Part shown: in pieces, positions 2,384-23,253 of the stretch
Layout of the letters: each line of letters begins with the position of its first letter
Numbering within the stretch: position 1 is the first letter of the stretch
Source of the DNA: a virus
DNA: 24,193 bases
Virus record (IMG/VR): IMGVR_UViG_3300048104_000233
Location: 1-24,193 of that record
Reading direction: 5' to 3' (one strand)
The notes under the pieces: model-generated
Seen by the model: the letters and a program-made list of their open reading frames with translations, nothing else
Told to the model about the DNA's origin: nothing
The model's database searches: none
Translations under genes and position numbers: made by a program

Positions 2384-2412
2384 TTGACATATTTAATTAA
2401 ATACTATATAAT
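2384..2412 (+). promoter_or_regulatory. sigma70-type (early-type) promoter
   Basis: A perfect -35 TTGACA (2384-2389) and a perfect -10 TATAAT (2407-2412) are separated by 17 bp, in the 59-bp gap after the fibre gene. A ribosome-binding site, AGGAG, lies between it and the ATG at 2439. It would drive the 2439-4352 cassette using unmodified host polymerase. It differs clearly from the TATAAATA late promoters elsewhere in the window. Confidence 0.85.
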
Positions 2413-2438
2413 ATAGATGATAACAGGAGAACTTAATC

Positions 2439-2927
2439 ATGGCATTTAAACGATGGATGGATAATGCTTTTTGGGAGACCGAAGAGAAAGAAAAACTGAA
2501 TTGTATACTTGAGATGGAAGATGATGTAAATCGTCAAACACGACAGGTGATGTTACTCAGTAAATTAGATAAGGACGGCAAAGAGAATGAACTCTTTAAT
2601 GAAGTTATCGAAGCACTTGGTACGGAATCAATTGATAAAAATACCGAAGAACGTAAGGTTCGTAAGAAAGCAGAAAAGGAAGAAGACAAGCAACGTGATA
2701 CAGAACACGCACGTGCACGTAAGTTAGAAGATCTTTTCAATTACAAACTTGAAGTCTTTGAAACAGAGCAAATCAAAAACTCTAAGAATAGAGCACTGAA
2801 AGCAAAACTAAGACGTGCTAAATCTAAGGTGGAAGTTAACTTATATGCAATCATGTTGTTTCAGTATGAGTTAGATCTTGCAGAAGAAGCAAAAGCAGAA
2901 CCGATTGGAGATGATTCGAGTGAGTGA
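2439..2927 (+). CDS. hypothetical charged, helical/coiled-coil protein
   Basis: A 162-residue protein I do not recognise by function. It is dominated by Glu, Lys and Arg and looks almost wholly helical, with likely coiled-coil stretches around residues 65-105 (EERKVRKKAEKEEDKQRD) and 110-155. No signal peptide or membrane segment is seen. It has a good ribosome-binding site (AGGAGA, about 10 bases before the ATG) and is the first gene after the sigma70-type promoter. Its 3' end overlaps the start of the glycosyltransferase gene, which suggests translational coupling. It could be an accessory or scaffold protein of the modification cassette or a fibre-associated chaperone; both are guesses from context. 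Confidence 0.8.
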   Translation: MAFKRWMDNAFWETEEKEKLNCILEMEDDVNRQTRQVMLLSKLDKDGKENELFNEVIEALGTESIDKNTEERKVRKKAEKEEDKQRDTEHARARKLEDLFNYKLEVFETEQIKNSKNRALKAKLRRAKSKVEVNLYAIMLFQYELDLAEEAKAEPIGDDSSE

Positions 2928-3657
2928 AAAGAGTAGAGGATATGTATTAGTTGCATCCAACAAGATTAACTTCTACAAATATGCTATTAATCTGGCAGAA
3001 TCTATTATTGATTATTATGAGGATGCTAAGATTACATTGTTTTGTGAACCTTGGATGTTGGAAGAACAGGATAAAGATCTCTTTGATGAGATCCATGATT
3101 GTTCTTCGCATTACCGTGCTAAACTGGAAGGTATGTGGAAGTCACCATATGACTTGACGATGTACCTCGATGTGGACATGGAATGTGAACATGAAGATAT
3201 TAAGGTTTGTTTTGATGAGTTAGAAAAAAGTGAACATGATATTCTCTTCTCTGAACTTACAGATGATAGATCGTATGTTTATGCAGAACGAGAGTTTGAT
3301 ACACCCGAAGGACGAAAAAAGTTTGTGCTGTGTGGTGGGATCTGTTTGTACGACAACACAGTTCCTCTTGTTCAAGAATTTATGAAAGACTGGGATACGT
3401 TAACAAAAGATCAGATGGATGGTCGGTGGTGGCCCGAAGGATACAATAAATCCTTGCAGTCGTGGGATCAGTTCTCATTGTGGTGGTTAACAGAAAAAGA
3501 CGAAAAATATAAAGACCTCAAGTATGGGATCATAGACGATGATCTTAGGTGGAATTATTATAACGCACTGAACTGGGCAAGAGGCCCACGTCCAAAAGGT
3601 GCTATAGTTATTCGACACTATTCTTGTGGTTTGGATAAGGACGGGCATATAATATGA
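2911..3657 (+). CDS. GT-A-fold glycosyltransferase-like protein
   Basis: A predicted nucleotide-sugar-dependent glycosyltransferase of 248 residues. The key feature is SPYDLTMYLDVDME, with a DxD metal/nucleotide-sugar motif at D87-V88-D89, as in GT-A-fold (GT8-like) enzymes. It follows an N-terminal beta-alpha start (GYVLVASNK at residues 10-18). Later features are LCGGICLYD (about 130-138), SWDQFSLWWL (about 174-183) and a C-terminal IRHYS. I chose ATG 2911; an in-frame TTG at 2878 would add 11 Lys/Gln-rich residues that look like read-back into the upstream gene. GTG 2920 is better spaced from GGAG (2907-2910) and remains possible. It overlaps the upstream gene, and its stop overlaps the next start as ATGA. 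The acceptor is unknown; virion proteins, host glycans and DNA are all open. Confidence 0.75.
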   Translation: MIRVSEKSRGYVLVASNKINFYKYAINLAESIIDYYEDAKITLFCEPWMLEEQDKDLFDEIHDCSSHYRAKLEGMWKSPYDLTMYLDVDMECEHEDIKVCFDELEKSEHDILFSELTDDRSYVYAEREFDTPEGRKKFVLCGGICLYDNTVPLVQEFMKDWDTLTKDQMDGRWWPEGYNKSLQSWDQFSLWWLTEKDEKYKDLKYGIIDDDLRWNYYNALNWARGPRPKGAIVIRHYSCGLDKDGHII

Positions 3658-4352
3658 GCAAACACATGATAGACGTAGAAGTCAAGAACAAGGAATTGTT
3701 GAATATACTGAATAGGTATACTCGTTTTCTAACAGAAGATAAAGAATCGTTTCAAAACGATTTTCATCGTACCTGTCAAGACTATAAAGATCAGAGGCAT
3801 TTCCTTGCAGGAGAAGGTCACTTAAATGAGATCGTAGAACAAGGAGACAGGCACGAAGGATTCCCAGATCAAATGTATGGTTATGAGTTAACTGTTAGTA
3901 GAAAGGAACATCAATTCTTTAGTGAAGATTGTCACCCAACACAACGATTAGAAAGAACTTCTGAGTTAGGTGTGATGCAAACAGAAATTATGGAATGGTT
4001 AGGTGTAAGGACGTGTGCATTGACTGCATACTACCCACCAGGCGGTTTCATATCATGGCATAACAATGCTAATGCAGCGGCATACAATTTAATATTTACA
4101 TGGTCAGAAGAAGGTACTGGGCAGTTTAACTATCTGGATCCCATAACTAAAGAAATAGTTGAAATGCCAGATAAGAAAGGGTGGCAATGTAAGGCGGCAT
4201 ATTTCGGACACTATGGTGAACCAGAAAGATTAATGTACCATACTGCCAAGACAGACTGTTGGAGATGCACCGTGTCATTTACATTTGATACTCAAGACCT
4301 ATCTGAAGTATTGCGTCACGATTTAATAGAAGAAATAAGTTCAGAAGAATAG
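3654..4352 (+). CDS. 2OG-Fe(II)-oxygenase-like protein (copy 1)
   Basis: A 232-residue protein resembling the viral 2-oxoglutarate/Fe(II) dioxygenase (prolyl-hydroxylase-like) double-stranded beta-helix. The putative site is WHNN with H136 and N138, followed by a distal H196 (MYHTAK) and R204 as the likely 2OG-binding Arg. The canonical HxD aspartate is Asn here. It is paralogous to the protein at 22636-23253: both contain a YPP.GFI.WH.N.NA segment, NLIFTWSE.G.G.F.YLD, KKGW/KVGW.CK..YFG and YH.A.T.C.R. It starts inside the stop of the glycosyltransferase gene (ATGA), so the two are probably translated together. Hydroxylation followed by glycosylation of a virion protein is a plausible joint role but is inferred. 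The Asn could also mean altered metal binding or a non-catalytic protein. Confidence 0.72.
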   Translation: MSKHMIDVEVKNKELLNILNRYTRFLTEDKESFQNDFHRTCQDYKDQRHFLAGEGHLNEIVEQGDRHEGFPDQMYGYELTVSRKEHQFFSEDCHPTQRLERTSELGVMQTEIMEWLGVRTCALTAYYPPGGFISWHNNANAAAYNLIFTWSEEGTGQFNYLDPITKEIVEMPDKKGWQCKAAYFGHYGEPERLMYHTAKTDCWRCTVSFTFDTQDLSEVLRHDLIEEISSEE

Positions 4353-4365
4353 AGATATTCCTCAG

Positions 4366-4427
4366 TTCCAGTTTCTAAAACATATAAATAAAACCATAGA
4401 CAACAACTTTGGTTTGAGAAACTGGAA
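4366..4427 (+). promoter_or_regulatory. inverted repeat that can sequester the start of the 4427 gene
   Basis: Two perfect 11-nt arms, TTCCAGTTTCT (4366-4376) and AGAAACTGGAA (4417-4427), are exact reverse complements. After one mismatch the stem continues with AAAC (4378-4381) pairing GTTT (4412-4415). The right arm covers the GAG Shine-Dalgarno-like bases and the first base of the ATG at 4427. The TATAAATA late promoter (4383-4390) lies in the loop. RNA reading through from upstream can fold; RNA starting at the late promoter lacks the left arm. This matches the arrangement known for T4 genes e, soc and 49. Confidence 0.75.
4383..4390 (+). promoter_or_regulatory. T4-type late promoter
   Basis: An exact TATAAATA lies 37 bases before the ATG of the 4427 gene. 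Transcription would start a few bases downstream, around 4396-4398 (inferred), inside the loop of the surrounding inverted repeat. It probably serves the structural block from 4427. Confidence 0.8.
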
Positions 4428-4786
4428 TGGCAGATTACGAAGATTTTACAATTGATCAAGGGGCAGACGTAGCAATAGAGTTACATCTGCAAGAGCAGGA
4501 TGGTTCTAAAAAGAACTTGACTGGTCATAGTGCCCTTGCTAAAATGAAACGCAGTTACAACTCTACAGATAGTGATGAAATTGTTTCATTCACTACTATA
4601 GTTTCATCACCTGCCACCGATGGTATTCTTACCCTCGCACTAACCAACTCTCAGACTGATTCACTCAATCCAAGATTGAGGTATGTCTATGACGTAGAAC
4701 TATCTTATCAAGATAGTAATAGTCAAACAATAATTGAAAGGATATTAGAAGGGAAGGTTAAAGTCTCTCCTTCTGTGACAAGGTAA
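4427..4786 (+). CDS. BppU-N-like virion protein
   Basis: A 119-residue beta-rich protein with the layout of the phage baseplate upper-protein N-terminal domain (BppU-like). It has an early F.IDQGAD..IELHLQEQDG segment, then KKNLTGHSALAKMKRSY and a closing ILEGKVKVSPSVTR strand. Such small proteins are common next to fibre genes in marine T4-like phages and probably act as fibre or baseplate adaptors. Four bases separate it from the next gene. No strong Shine-Dalgarno is seen; the weak GAG at 4416-4418 and the first base of the start codon lie in a hairpin arm, so translation is probably controlled by which promoter made the RNA. The exact virion position is unknown. Confidence 0.7.
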   Translation: MADYEDFTIDQGADVAIELHLQEQDGSKKNLTGHSALAKMKRSYNSTDSDEIVSFTTIVSSPATDGILTLALTNSQTDSLNPRLRYVYDVELSYQDSNSQTIIERILEGKVKVSPSVTR

Positions 4787-4790
4787 ACTT

Positions 4791-5015
4791 ATGGCAACTA
4801 CAGTATCTCTTAGAGGAAAGACAAGGGTCAAACGAGTAATCGTTGGAAAACCTATAAGAAGGATTACACAATCAAGTGGTTCTGTGGGTGCTCTGGCAGA
4901 TGTTAACATCGAAGGATTAGTTAATGGTGCAGTGCTTGTATATAATGAATCTACCGAAAGGTGGGAAGCAACGGCAGAATTAAATCAACAAGAAGTTAAC
5001 GGAGGCCAATACTGA
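4791..5015 (+). CDS. small fibre-associated structural protein
   Basis: A 74-residue protein with a basic N-terminus (SLRGKTRVKRVIVGKPIRR) and the motif ALADVNIEGLVNGAVLVYNE followed by RWEAT. That D-x-x-x-G-x-x-L-x-Y-(N/D)-x-x-x-x-x-W pattern is common in phage tail-fibre and appendage proteins. Its C-terminus, NGGQY, resembles the DGGTY end of the next protein. It sits between the BppU-like gene (4-base gap) and the long fibre gene, whose start overlaps its stop as TGATG. A ribosome-binding site GGAGG for the next gene (5001-5005) lies inside it. Its role is unknown, probably an appendage adaptor. Confidence 0.65.
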   Translation: MATTVSLRGKTRVKRVIVGKPIRRITQSSGSVGALADVNIEGLVNGAVLVYNESTERWEATAELNQQEVNGGQY

Positions 5016-7039
5016 TGGCATCAATATTAAGAATTAAAAGATCGGGGACTGCGGGTGACCCGACAACACTGGGGCAGGGTGAATTAGCATATTCATCTCT
5101 TGCCGATAACGGTTCCAATGGTGGTGATCGTCTATATATCGGTACTGGCACCGAAGTAGCAGGAAATGCTGTAAACCACGAAGTAATTGGTGGTAAGTAC
5201 TTCACATCTAAACTGGATCATGCATTAGGAACACTGACCCCGAACAGTGCAATCCTTGTAGATGCAAACAGTAAGATTGATGTACTGAATGTAGATAATG
5301 TAACCTTAAATGGTAACACTATTTCTACTACAGATACAAACGGTGGACTAATACTTGCACCTAACGGTACAGGTACTACTACAGTCAACTCTGTTGTTTT
5401 CGGAACAACTGTTGACGTAGTTGGCAAACGTATTACACAAGTTGCCACACCTACAGCAGACTCAGATGCCGCCACTAAGGCATACGTAGATGCAGTGACC
5501 GCAGGTCAGACATTTACTATCGGTGACGGATCTGCTACAGATACATTTAATGCCGCCTCTGGAACATTGTTGTTTAATGGTCTTACTGGTATTACAACTG
5601 CGGTAACTAATGACGCAGTATCCATTGACCTTGACGATACATCTGTAACAGCAGGAGACTATGGATCTGCTACTGCTATTCCAACATTCACAGTTGATGG
5701 ACAGGGTAGGTTAACTGCCGCTGGTACAGCATCAATCAGTACTTCCCTAAATGTACAGGGAGATACAATACCACTTGCATCACAAAGTTTACTCTTCGCA
5801 TCTTCGGGTGACGGAATATCTTTTGCGTATGATAGTGGTACAAATACTGCAACTTACTCTATGGCAACTGCCACAACATCTGCCAAAGGTGTTGCAAGTT
5901 TTGCTACGGCAGACTTCGGAGTTTCAAGTGGTGCAGTAAGTCTTAACGATGCAGTCGTTAAAGGTGTAGGTGCAAACTCTGGTAGCACAACACCAACAGG
6001 TCATTCGTTTAGTATTATAGGTGATAGTTCACAAGGTATCACAACAAGTGGTTCTGGTGCTAATGTCACGGTGACAATAGCAGACGCAACCGTAAGTGCA
6101 AAGGGTGTTGCCTCATTCGCAACCGCAGACTTCGGAGTATCCTCTGGAGCAGTTTCTCTTAATGACGCAGTACTAAAAACTATAACAACTGACACAGGTG
6201 CAGGACTAACACCATCAAGTCATGGGATCTCTATCGTTGGTGGAGAAGGTGTCGATGTAACTCACGCAGGGGCAGTTATTACTGTCACAGGTGAAGATGC
6301 AACATATACCAATAAAGGTATAGCATCATTCGACACCAATGACTTTACAGTAACCTCTGGTGCTGTAAGTCTTAAATCTGGATCTGTTGCTAACGCAGAC
6401 CTTGCCAATGATGGCATTGTTATTGGTAGCACAGACGTATCACTTGGTGGTACAATCACCAGTCTGGTAGGACTAACAAACGTAACAGTAGATGATATTA
6501 CTCTTAACGGTAATGTAATATCTACACCGTCTTCTGTAAACGACATTATACTTGATCCAAAAGGTGGAGATAGTGCAGGTGGTCGTGTCATAATTCAAGG
6601 TGACCTCTTAGTACAAGGTACTGAGACAATAGTCAACTCGACTACTATGACTATCAATGACAAGAACCTCGTTCTTGCTGATAGTGCCGCTGATGCAACT
6701 GCCGCTAACGGTGCAGGTATTACAATTAACGGTGCCGCTGCTACTTTACAATATCTTGTAAGTGGTGATAAGTGGGAAGTAAACAAAGACTTCAATACAA
6801 CTGGTGAGTTGTACAGAAACGGAACTGCCATTGGTGAGTACATCCAAGATGTTATGGGTACAGCAATTGCAGTCGGTGAAGGTCTTGACTTTGCATATAA
6901 CGATGGCGCTGGTACTCATACATTCTCAGCAGAGTTGGCAACAATAACGAATAAAGGTGTCGCATCATATGATAGTGACCAATTCACAGTAACCTCTGGT
7001 GCTGTAACTGTATCCACACTGGACGGTGGTACGTATTAA
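5015..7039 (+). CDS. long repeat-containing fibre/whisker-like structural protein A
   Basis: A 674-residue fibrous virion protein. The N-terminus carries ILRIKRSGTAGDPTTLGQGE, followed by a LYIGTG motif, the usual start of phage appendage proteins. RITQVATP.ADSDAATKAYVDA (about residues 130-152) is a classic tail-fibre shaft motif. Four copies of K-G-(V/I)-A-S-(F/Y)-x-x-x-x-F-x-V-(T/S)-S-G-A-V follow, roughly 71-72 residues apart. A DKNLVLADSA module (about 547-556) is shared with the next gene. The protein ends DGGTY. GGAGG lies about 9 bases before the start and the start overlaps the previous stop (TGATG), so the choice is firm. In T4 this position, just before gp13, holds gp12 and the fibritin gene wac. 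A whisker or short-fibre role is inferred from position, not from close sequence similarity. Confidence 0.8.
   Translation: MASILRIKRSGTAGDPTTLGQGELAYSSLADNGSNGGDRLYIGTGTEVAGNAVNHEVIGGKYFTSKLDHALGTLTPNSAILVDANSKIDVLNVDNVTLNGNTISTTDTNGGLILAPNGTGTTTVNSVVFGTTVDVVGKRITQVATPTADSDAATKAYVDAVTAGQTFTIGDGSATDTFNAASGTLLFNGLTGITTAVTNDAVSIDLDDTSVTAGDYGSATAIPTFTVDGQGRLTAAGTASISTSLNVQGDTIPLASQSLLFASSGDGISFAYDSGTNTATYSMATATTSAKGVASFATADFGVSSGAVSLNDAVVKGVGANSGSTTPTGHSFSIIGDSSQGITTSGSGANVTVTIADATVSAKGVASFATADFGVSSGAVSLNDAVLKTITTDTGAGLTPSSHGISIVGGEGVDVTHAGAVITVTGEDATYTNKGIASFDTNDFTVTSGAVSLKSGSVANADLANDGIVIGSTDVSLGGTITSLVGLTNVTVDDITLNGNVISTPSSVNDIILDPKGGDSAGGRVIIQGDLLVQGTETIVNSTTMTINDKNLVLADSAADATAANGAGITINGAAATLQYLVSGDKWEVNKDFNTTGELYRNGTAIGEYIQDVMGTAIAVGEGLDFAYNDGAGTHTFSAELATITNKGVASYDSDQFTVTSGAVTVSTLDGGTY
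5879..7015 (+). repeat. four K-G-(V/I)-A-S modules in fibre protein A
   Basis: The motif beginning AKGVASFATADFGVSSGAVS recurs with its Lys codon at 5885, 6101, 6314 and 6953. The gaps are 216, 213 and 639 (three times 213) bases, so one repeat unit is about 71-72 residues. The last gap is an exact multiple of the unit but holds a different module. Copies 1 and 2 are the most alike. Confidence 0.8.
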
Positions 7040-7048
7040 TTAATAATC

Positions 7049-7066
7049 CCCCTGTATATACAGGGG
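7049..7066 (+). promoter_or_regulatory. 18-bp perfect palindrome between the two fibre genes
   Basis: CCCCTGTATATACAGGGG reads the same on both strands and lies in the 43-base gap before the ATG at 7083. It is not followed by a T-run, so it is not a standard terminator. It could be an mRNA hairpin just upstream of the ribosome-binding site (CGAGG, 7071-7075), a processing site or a dimeric protein-binding site. Confidence 0.6.
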
Positions 7067-7082
7067 TTAACGAGGTTGACAT

Positions 7083-16699: not shown

Positions 16700-16707
16700 C
16701 TAAATAT
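16700..16707 (+). promoter_or_regulatory. possible late promoter variant before gp20
   Basis: CTAAATAT lies just after the gp19 stop, 61 bases before the gp20 ATG. It differs from TATAAATA at several positions but fits the CTAAATA/NATAAATA type of late box known in cyanophages. Transcription would begin near the left arm of the hairpin that follows. Confidence 0.4.
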
Positions 16708-16710
16708 ATG

Positions 16711-16742
16711 CGTAGGGAGGATTTTCTCCCTACGTATTATTT
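16711..16742 (+). terminator. hairpin terminator after gp19
   Basis: Stem CGTAGGGAG (16711-16719), loop GATTTT, and stem CTCCCTACG (16726-16734) form nine perfect base pairs, followed by the T-rich TATTATTTT. It sits 19 bases after the gp19 stop and 27 bases before the gp20 start, so it could end the gp18-gp19 transcript. The T-run is interrupted, so termination may be partial. Confidence 0.7.
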
Positions 16743-16760
16743 TAATTTGAAGGTAAGGAT

Positions 16761-22051: not shown

Positions 22052-22075
22052 GAATACTTTAGTATTTGTTTTAAA

Positions 22076-22101
22076 GGGAGACTTCGGTCTCCCTTTTTTT
22101 T
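22076..22101 (+). terminator. UUCG-loop intrinsic terminator after gp23
   Basis: Stem GGGAGAC (22076-22082), loop TTCG (22083-22086) and stem GTCTCCC (22087-22093) are followed by eight Ts (22094-22101). Three As before the stem can also pair with the first Ts. This is a textbook strong Rho-independent terminator closing the capsid transcript. Confidence 0.95.
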
Positions 22102-22114
22102 GCTTTATAACTTG

Positions 22115-22122
22115 TATAAATA
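22115..22122 (+). promoter_or_regulatory. T4-type late promoter before the second tube-like gene
   Basis: An exact TATAAATA lies 14 bases after the gp23 terminator and 30 bases before the ATG at 22145. TAAGAGG precedes the start as the ribosome-binding site. The terminator/promoter pair separates this short transcript from the capsid unit. Confidence 0.8.
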
Positions 22123-22144: not shown

Positions 22145-22636
22145 ATGGCACTTACAACTAACAAAAATTACTTACAACCTACAGGATTCAAGTTTATTGT
22201 ATCTGGGGAAGAATATCAGAACCTACAGTTCTTTGCTCAGTCGGTTACACATCCAGGCGCAAATGCCAACCCAGTAGAACTACCTGTAGCACGTGTTACA
22301 TCTGTACCACTCGCAGGTGATAAGATCACATACTCTGAACTATCACTTGAAGTTATTCTCGATGAGGACATGAAGTCATATAAAGAAATGCAAAGTTGGT
22401 TGGAACGTATCGTCAATGAAGGACAGAGTAATACAATAGGTGGTGCCAAGACACAAACGTATTCTGATATTACTCTTATTATTCTCACATCACATAATAA
22501 CAACAACGTAGAAATTAAATACTTTGATTGTTTACCTACCAATATCGGTCAGATAAATATGACATCAAACACGGGTGATGTAGTATACCCAACATTCACA
22601 GTAGGATTTAGATTTAGTTCATTCGAGATAAAATAA
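22145..22636 (+). CDS. second tail-tube-fold protein (gp19-like paralogue)
   Basis: A 163-residue protein with the gp19/tube pattern: YLQPTGFKFIVSG, then FFAQSVTHPGANANPVELPV, GDKITYSELSLEVILDEDMK, SWLERIVNEG and a last strand FTVGFRFSSFEI. In gp19 the matching parts are NLFNCKVNFP, the QLPAS loop, the GDRTFEEWTVTVINDTGF hairpin and the final FQVTFQVQYWES. T4 gp54 (tube initiator) also has a gp19-like fold, but it is twice as long. Marine T4-like genomes commonly annotate this post-gp23 position as gp3 (tube terminator), so a tube-end role is likely. It shares the late transcript and a TAATG overlap with the following oxygenase-like gene. Confidence 0.75.
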   Translation: MALTTNKNYLQPTGFKFIVSGEEYQNLQFFAQSVTHPGANANPVELPVARVTSVPLAGDKITYSELSLEVILDEDMKSYKEMQSWLERIVNEGQSNTIGGAKTQTYSDITLIILTSHNNNNVEIKYFDCLPTNIGQINMTSNTGDVVYPTFTVGFRFSSFEIK

Positions 22637-23253
22637 TGCAGAACGTTAATATTATGAATCCCCAAGTGCAATCGTTGCTTGAAGAGTTTGAAATCTTTTT
22701 TCTTAATCAACAGGTTGAGTTAACCAATAATTACATTAATGGTGACAACCCAGACTATTGGACTGGAGATGAATATCTTGAGAGTATCATGAAAGATCAT
22801 GACGGTAGTCCCAAGAATTCAAACTCATATTGTTTAAAACCACAGCACTATAATGGACTTGACTCTCAATACGAAATAGTGTATAATGATATTAACGACA
22901 GACTCTCTCTTGAACTTGGAGTAAGTCACAGTGCATTGTCTCAGATGTATCCACCCGATGGGTTTATCGCATGGCATACGAATGAGAATGCAATTGGTGC
23001 CAATCTGATATTTACTTGGTCAGAAACTGGTGACGGTTACTTCGAGTACCTCGACAAAGAAGGTAAGAAAGTACGTATGCAAGACAAGGTGGGTTGGTCG
23101 TGTAAATCGGGTTACTTTGGTGGACGTGAAGATAATCAACATGTGTACCATTGTGCGAGAACAAACTGCAAAAGAATTACTCTTAGTTATGTGTTTGAGG
23201 GTTGTCCTACTGAATGGTGGGATGATTGTTTGGAGCACGTACAACGAGGATAA
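22636..23253 (+). CDS. 2OG-Fe(II)-oxygenase-like protein (copy 2)
   Basis: A 205-residue paralogue of the 3654-4352 protein. The putative active site is WHTN with H114 and N116, then distal H172 (VYHCARTNC) and R180. As in copy 1, the usual HxD aspartate is Asn, so the change is shared and not a random lesion. It also shares YPPDGFIAWHTNENA, NLIFTWSETGDGYFEYLD and KVGWSCKSGYFGG. The start overlaps the tube-like gene stop (TAATG), so the two are probably co-translated from the late promoter at 22115. The substrate is unknown; modification of a tail or capsid protein is one possibility. Inactivity or a different metal ligand set cannot be excluded. Confidence 0.72.
   Translation: MQNVNIMNPQVQSLLEEFEIFFLNQQVELTNNYINGDNPDYWTGDEYLESIMKDHDGSPKNSNSYCLKPQHYNGLDSQYEIVYNDINDRLSLELGVSHSALSQMYPPDGFIAWHTNENAIGANLIFTWSETGDGYFEYLDKEGKKVRMQDKVGWSCKSGYFGGREDNQHVYHCARTNCKRITLSYVFEGCPTEWWDDCLEHVQRG

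Follow-up and report, generated by a model that had tools for sequence, protein, structure and literature searches.

A late promoter and the start codon of the gene behind it are enclosed by a single RNA hairpin in an uncultured marine phage, and we consider it highly likely that this hairpin is an RNA switch of timing and insulation, which would hide the start of the gene at 4427 in read-through RNA and leave it open in late RNA. The DNA analysed (hereafter the window) is a 24,193-base IMG/VR virus fragment carrying late structural genes of a T4-like phage; its distant DNA matches are cyanophages, and kinship with the Kyanoviridae is seen via phage C48C1. The masked gene codes for a protein related to those that assemble L-shaped tail fibres, and the hairpin probably keeps it silent when it is copied from upstream early genes. 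The hairpin, first noticed in a sequence-only reading of the window, is confirmed, and its interpretation as a switch is well supported by comparison with related phages. The features concerned are:

2384–2412, + strand: consensus sigma70 promoter, TTGACA-N17-TATAAT, proposed early promoter (12/12 match, best of the scanned region)
2439–2927, + strand: cassette gene c1, 162 aa (open reading frame; directly upstream in relatives too)
2920–3657, + strand: cassette gene c2, predicted GT-A/GT8-like glycosyltransferase (AlphaFold pLDDT 89.6; Foldseek)
3654–4352, + strand: cassette gene c3, predicted 2-oxoglutarate/Fe(II) oxygenase of prolyl hydroxylase/AlkB-like fold (model pLDDT 94.5)
4366–4376, + strand: left (upstream) arm, TTCCAGTTTCT, in read-through RNA only; covariation
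4378–4381, + strand: possible inner stem, left side, AAAC
4383–4390, + strand: late promoter TATAAATA in the hairpin loop, at the same position in nearly all homologous regions
4412–4415, + strand: possible inner stem, right side, GTTT, complementary to 4378–4381
4417–4427, + strand: right arm, AGAAACTGGAA, spanning a weak Shine-Dalgarno region and the A of the ATG
4427–4786, + strand: masked late gene, LtfC-like/L-shaped tail fibre assembly protein, 119 aa (phrog_1084, E 3.5e-21; phrog_3304, E 7e-13)
4791–5015, + strand: next late-operon gene, starting 4 nt behind the 4427 gene
5015–7039, + strand: large structural gene, its ATG overlapping the preceding stop (TGATG)

The two perfect 11-nt arms, the late promoter between them and the ATG were all verified at the positions first assigned to them, and the right arm does cover, as had been claimed, both the Shine-Dalgarno-like bases, which are weak in the window, and the first base of the ATG: by folding and opening energy, the Shine-Dalgarno and/or AUG lie in a helix of the long RNA, the 4417–4427 helix including the start. 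The four-base inner stem of the same reading stood only in part, in that the complementary bases are present but go unused in the minimum-energy fold, where 4391–4396, paired with about 4410–4415, competes for the same bases; in this fold the outer stem is lengthened to 12 pairs (G4365–U4428). Apart from the hairpin, the window holds no inverted repeat of 11 perfect pairs whose loop is 60 nt or shorter. Shuffled windows hold a mean of 0.27 such repeats, and since 14 of 60 shuffles have at least one, a repeat of this kind somewhere in the window is unremarkable and weak evidence by itself; the case for the hairpin is carried by its conservation and by where it lies, over both a late promoter and the start of a gene.

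The RNA of 4366–4427 folds with −16.7 kcal/mol (z −4.9). Comparison of the two transcripts, as the sequence-only reading had proposed, agreed with its expectation: the read-through RNA (4360–4440) is structured (−19.5 kcal/mol, z −3.8), whereas the shortened late RNA (4396–4440) is unstructured (−3.0 kcal/mol, z 0.2). The predicted cost of opening the start region, bases −13 to +5 (opening energy), is 13.2 kcal/mol at 4427 in read-through RNA versus 5.4 kcal/mol in late RNA; at the other three late promoters of the window the corresponding values are 4.2 versus 5.7, 4.3 versus 2.0 and 6.6 versus 2.4. T4 genes e and 49, used as positive controls, gave 15.2 versus 4.2 and 16.8 versus 3.5, respectively, and T4 soc, also a published case, only 9.5 versus 7.2, so that opening energy is not a sharp classifier. 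For homologous genes, the mean opening energies (read-through, late) are 13.4 and 5.8 at hairpin loci and 7.1 and 5.3 at the remaining loci; in the clade of L135, L144 and L192 (eight loci) the stem sits farther upstream of the start, with a small predicted gain, 0 to 4.6 kcal/mol.

The copy of TATAAATA in the loop is a T4-type late promoter directly before the gene, 36 nt upstream of the ATG, from which RNA is predicted to start at about 4396. Four copies are found in the window, all on the + strand, intergenic and ahead of structural or other late-cluster genes, and a start-masking stem is present only at 4383 (stem z 4.8, versus −0.6 to 0.1 at the others). With copies of the focal gene set aside, stem z stays at or below 2.6 for every other late promoter of the fetched loci; the highest 'controls' in this survey proved to be copies of that gene read from another start (MTMATYEDF and similar). 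The promoter is of the same class as the cyanophage late promoter NATAAATA, reviewed in an article that does not describe hairpins or masking (PMC2984593).

The comparison drew on relatives of the 4427 protein, first 27 and then 80 with an alignment, plus phage C48C1. At hairpin loci the c1-c2-c3 cassette lies directly upstream, or as much of its end as a truncated contig shows; exceptions are L185 and two marginal cases, L172 and L024, which score for the hairpin with no cassette there. The sigma70-type promoter that had been placed at 2384 is a full consensus match and is conserved among hairpin-bearing relatives. In the complete C48C1 genome, exact TTGACA-N17-TATAAT has 12 copies on the + strand and one on the opposite strand, preceding the genes for late sigma, SbcD, the sliding clamp, DNA polymerase, a methyltransferase, the replicative helicase and others; judged by the replication genes that it precedes there, the motif is meaningful as a promoter, of a proposed early class. 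It had also been claimed that no terminator separates this promoter from the hairpin, and none that is convincing was found in 2412–4366, the sole match (3076–3093) being an intragenic 6-bp stem whose T tract is poor; RNA reading through from 2384 would therefore pass 4366.

The presence of the hairpin goes with that of the cassette promoter. On the tree, 40 cassette loci comprise 28 with the hairpin (L007 and L120 added after inspection of their folds) and 12 without, L019 being counted among the latter despite a perfect 11-bp stem that falls narrowly under the threshold. In 25 of the 28 hairpin loci the gap preceding c1 holds a sigma70 match scoring 9 or more, versus one of the 12 hairpin-less loci, namely L019 (Fisher 1.7e-6; 4e-5 at the strict threshold). 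Relatives that keep the promoter and lose the arms, named in the sequence-only reading as the finding that would speak against it, were looked for: all 26 loci with a sigma70-type cassette promoter keep the hairpin (23 pass the strict threshold, two were added after inspection and L019 lies just below the cut), and loci with lost arms are also without such a promoter. A hairpin without a good sigma70 match is seen in L022, L165 and L192 (TTGCAT-N17-TATAAC in L192). The gap before c1 in hairpin-less loci is mostly 14 to 48 nt long and promoterless, which suggests that the cassette there probably belongs to the late operon. Because the tree requires only three to four changes of either trait and an independent-pairs test, of low power, is not significant, the association is suggestive, not proven.

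A hairpin just behind the cassette, found mainly at loci whose cassette carries a promoter of its own, could also be expected to end or stabilise the 3' end of the cassette mRNA, as a terminator, an RNase III site or an exonuclease barrier, and to have no part in masking translation. We regard this role as unlikely, and rejected the terminator reading for lack of a T tract: the right arm is followed by TGGCAGATTACG and the GC-rich stem with a T tract of an intrinsic terminator is not found, nor does a terminator lie between cassette and gene in any of 36 hairpin loci. L150, with neither a cassette directly upstream nor a hairpin, has a terminator at that place and shows what a real one looks like there. 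Moreover, a 3'-end role leaves unexplained why the stem surrounds a late promoter and reaches the start codon.

The masking reading is further supported by the evolution of the arms. TATAAATA precedes the gene in nearly all relatives, and the arms around it change while remaining paired. Those of the window clade are CCAGTTTC/GAAACTGG, with CTAGTTTC/GAAACTAG in L006 and CCAGTTCC/GGAACTGG in L119; arms of unrelated letters, still paired, are found in L022 (ACCGTTTTC/GAAAACGGT), in L137 (CCTCAGATTG/CAATCTGAGG), in L142 (CCTTAAACTG/CAGTTTAAGG) and L152 (CCTTGAACTG/CAGTTCAGGG), and in L126 and L127, with a long stem of at least 30 pairs. L135 and C48C1 have CCCTAAG/CTTAGGG. In the window clade, 97% of the cells are standard pairs, with two-sided changes at 3 of 10 pairs; in a second, related clade, 97.5% are paired, two-sided changes occur at 6 of 9 pairs and the covariation score is 0.77, versus 0.33 in shuffles, of which 0 of 500 reach it. 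The covariation that the sequence-only reading had asked for is thus found as compensatory changes within clades and as wholly different arms between them, and by these two signs the pairing is conserved by selection. MAFFT had placed the right arms of L118, L120 and L121 off by one base, and arms were registered by hand before pairs were counted, a procedure that leans towards structure. A local stem score with shuffles replaced RNAduplex of every left against every right region, which is uninformative because long loops inflate unrelated pairs.

An inverted repeat acting in DNA, as an operator or cruciform that binds a regulator around the late promoter, would show paired changes too, and the arms do flank the promoter symmetrically. 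We nevertheless give this possibility little credence, and rejected it on account of the changed arms, which differ so wholly between clades that no recognition motif is shared. With G-U and A-C scored symmetrically, G-U outnumbers A-C by 59 to 22, an excess that amounts to a tendency, the sequences being related, and that is expected of sense-strand RNA but not of a DNA palindrome. In addition, the right arm stays with the start and the ribosome-binding region before it, and the repeat is missing at other late promoters. A chance repeat without function, for which the frequency of perfect repeats in shuffled windows might be cited, is very improbable, as this one falls on a late promoter, one of four, and on the start codon behind it, and covariation, the ground on which chance was rejected, already refutes it. 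Equally improbable, and likewise rejected, is a thermometer or ligand-sensing leader acting within one and the same RNA: a start-masking hairpin is the typical look of such elements, but an Rfam search gave no meaningful match, the promoter is the sole conserved unpaired core, and half of the element would be absent from late RNA.

We propose, then, that the hairpin masks the start in the following way. RNA from the early-type promoter at 2384 would run through the three-gene cassette and onward past 4366; pairing of the arms in this long RNA would make the start codon of the 4427 gene and its ribosome-binding region inaccessible, so that the gene would go untranslated early. Late in infection, the phage sigma factor would use TATAAATA in the loop and RNA would begin near 4396, and since the left arm sits upstream of the promoter, late RNA would lack it, stay open and be translated. 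The genes at 4791 and 5015 are probably coupled in translation to those preceding them, and from the 4-nt gap and the TGATG overlap we infer that silencing would spread to both. The assignment of the masked gene rests on its PHROG matches, the Pfam LtfC match of its protein being weak and below the cut-off.

The T4 switch is established for a few genes in cultured phages of enterobacteria and Aeromonas. In the uncultured marine phages compared here, a probable switch of this type is linked to a virion gene and shows strong covariation over divergent lineages, and the link between an early promoter ahead of the cassette and a hairpin following it offers a testable rule on how late operons accept early genes. 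The likeness to T4 genes e, soc and 49 drawn in the sequence-only reading holds, start-masking hairpins of all three having been reviewed: in these, too, the late promoter lies beside or inside the hairpin, and the upstream arm is missing from late RNA, as it would be here (PMC3014915). The Shine-Dalgarno or AUG is likewise in a helix, the gene lies behind early transcription, as proposed here, and for e and 49 the predicted energy difference is similar to that of the window hairpin. In the case of gene e, longer early transcripts form an inhibitory structure that lowers lysozyme synthesis 100-fold, and late transcripts are without the 5' part of this structure (PMC3014915). Homing endonuclease genes (I-TevI, I-TevII, I-TevIII, segB and Aeh1 mobE) have the start-masking mechanism that we propose here, being late genes within an early or middle unit whose ribosome-binding site is masked in the long RNA only (PMC2988022). 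Those, however, are mobile endonucleases, whereas the gene masked here serves virion assembly. It differs from T4 e, soc and 49 in its product, a tail-fibre assembly protein, in standing first in a structural operon of a marine phage that is uncultured, and in having had its arms replaced several times in evolution. The mechanism is therefore known already (T4 e, soc, 49 and I-TevI); what is new is the type of target gene, the repeated replacement of arms with pairing kept and the tie to an early promoter, and the evolutionary evidence, from sequence comparison, is unusually strong.

In C48C1, a second late promoter, at 80999 and upstream of an 89-aa gene, is enclosed in a strong stem that spans 80978–81034 (30978–31034 of L198), with relatives in L246–L283. 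The stem is mostly kept in the relatives with changed arms (CTCTCC, CTCTCTC and CCTTCC versus GGAGAG forms), and a few copies (L254, L260) score near zero. The putative masking module stands at two unrelated genes of one phage group, which probably uses the start-masking design at least twice. A general insulation module, repeatedly rebuilt in marine T4-like phages whenever an early unit comes to lie before a late gene without a terminator and a new hairpin forms around the late promoter, is an extension that we offer tentatively, with somewhat more doubt than belief; in other lineages the LtfC-like gene has a terminator or a separate conserved leader RNA instead.

That leader is found in cassette-less lineages, within the late RNA of the LtfC-like gene (L146, 3957–4003; also L139, L143, L164, L168, L170 and L189), with 35 distinct copies in L200–L245. 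It reads GGCAGGG-(small hairpin)-CCGACAAAGAAAUC...GGAG-UAUUUC-AUG, and a further stem may form between GAAAU and AUUUC (in a variant, between GAACU and AGUUC), with the Shine-Dalgarno in the loop. A pattern search found it before the LtfC-like gene only and Rfam gave no match; it is possibly a new cis-regulatory RNA.

As for the cassette, c1 has no PHROG and no Pfam match above the cut-off. The model of c2 matches glycogenin and LgtC in Foldseek (E about 1e-7 to 1e-6) and that of c3 matches prolyl-4-hydroxylases and AlkB, H136, N138, H196 and R204 being invariant in c3. The predicted glycosyltransferase and oxygenase (2920–4352) sit right behind a repetitive tail-fibre-like gene (1–2379), and the two enzymes may hydroxylate and glycosylate the tail fibre, which would fit early enzyme synthesis. 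A paralogue of the oxygenase lies at 22636–23253 (33% identity, E 5e-33), in the late cluster behind the capsid region. In L118, L120, L121 and L006, the −35 box TTGACA upstream of c1 overlaps the TGA stop of the tail-fibre gene. In L137, L138, L145, L149, L154, L155, L158, L136, L126 and L127, a terminator-like hairpin lies soon after the sigma70 promoter, which follows the tail-fibre stop, and before c1; it may act as an attenuator or as a 5' stabiliser, or represent a short RNA, and because it follows the cassette promoter, early read-through may be attenuated in L137, L145, L158 and others.

Elsewhere in the window, hairpins also lie between genes: a terminator with a T run (22073–22105), which comes after the capsid gene and ahead of the late promoter at 22115; a stem, GTAGGGAG/CTCCCTAC (16701–16744), between the gp19- and gp20-like genes; and a perfect palindrome, CCCCTGTATATACAGGGG (7050–7067), preceding 7083.
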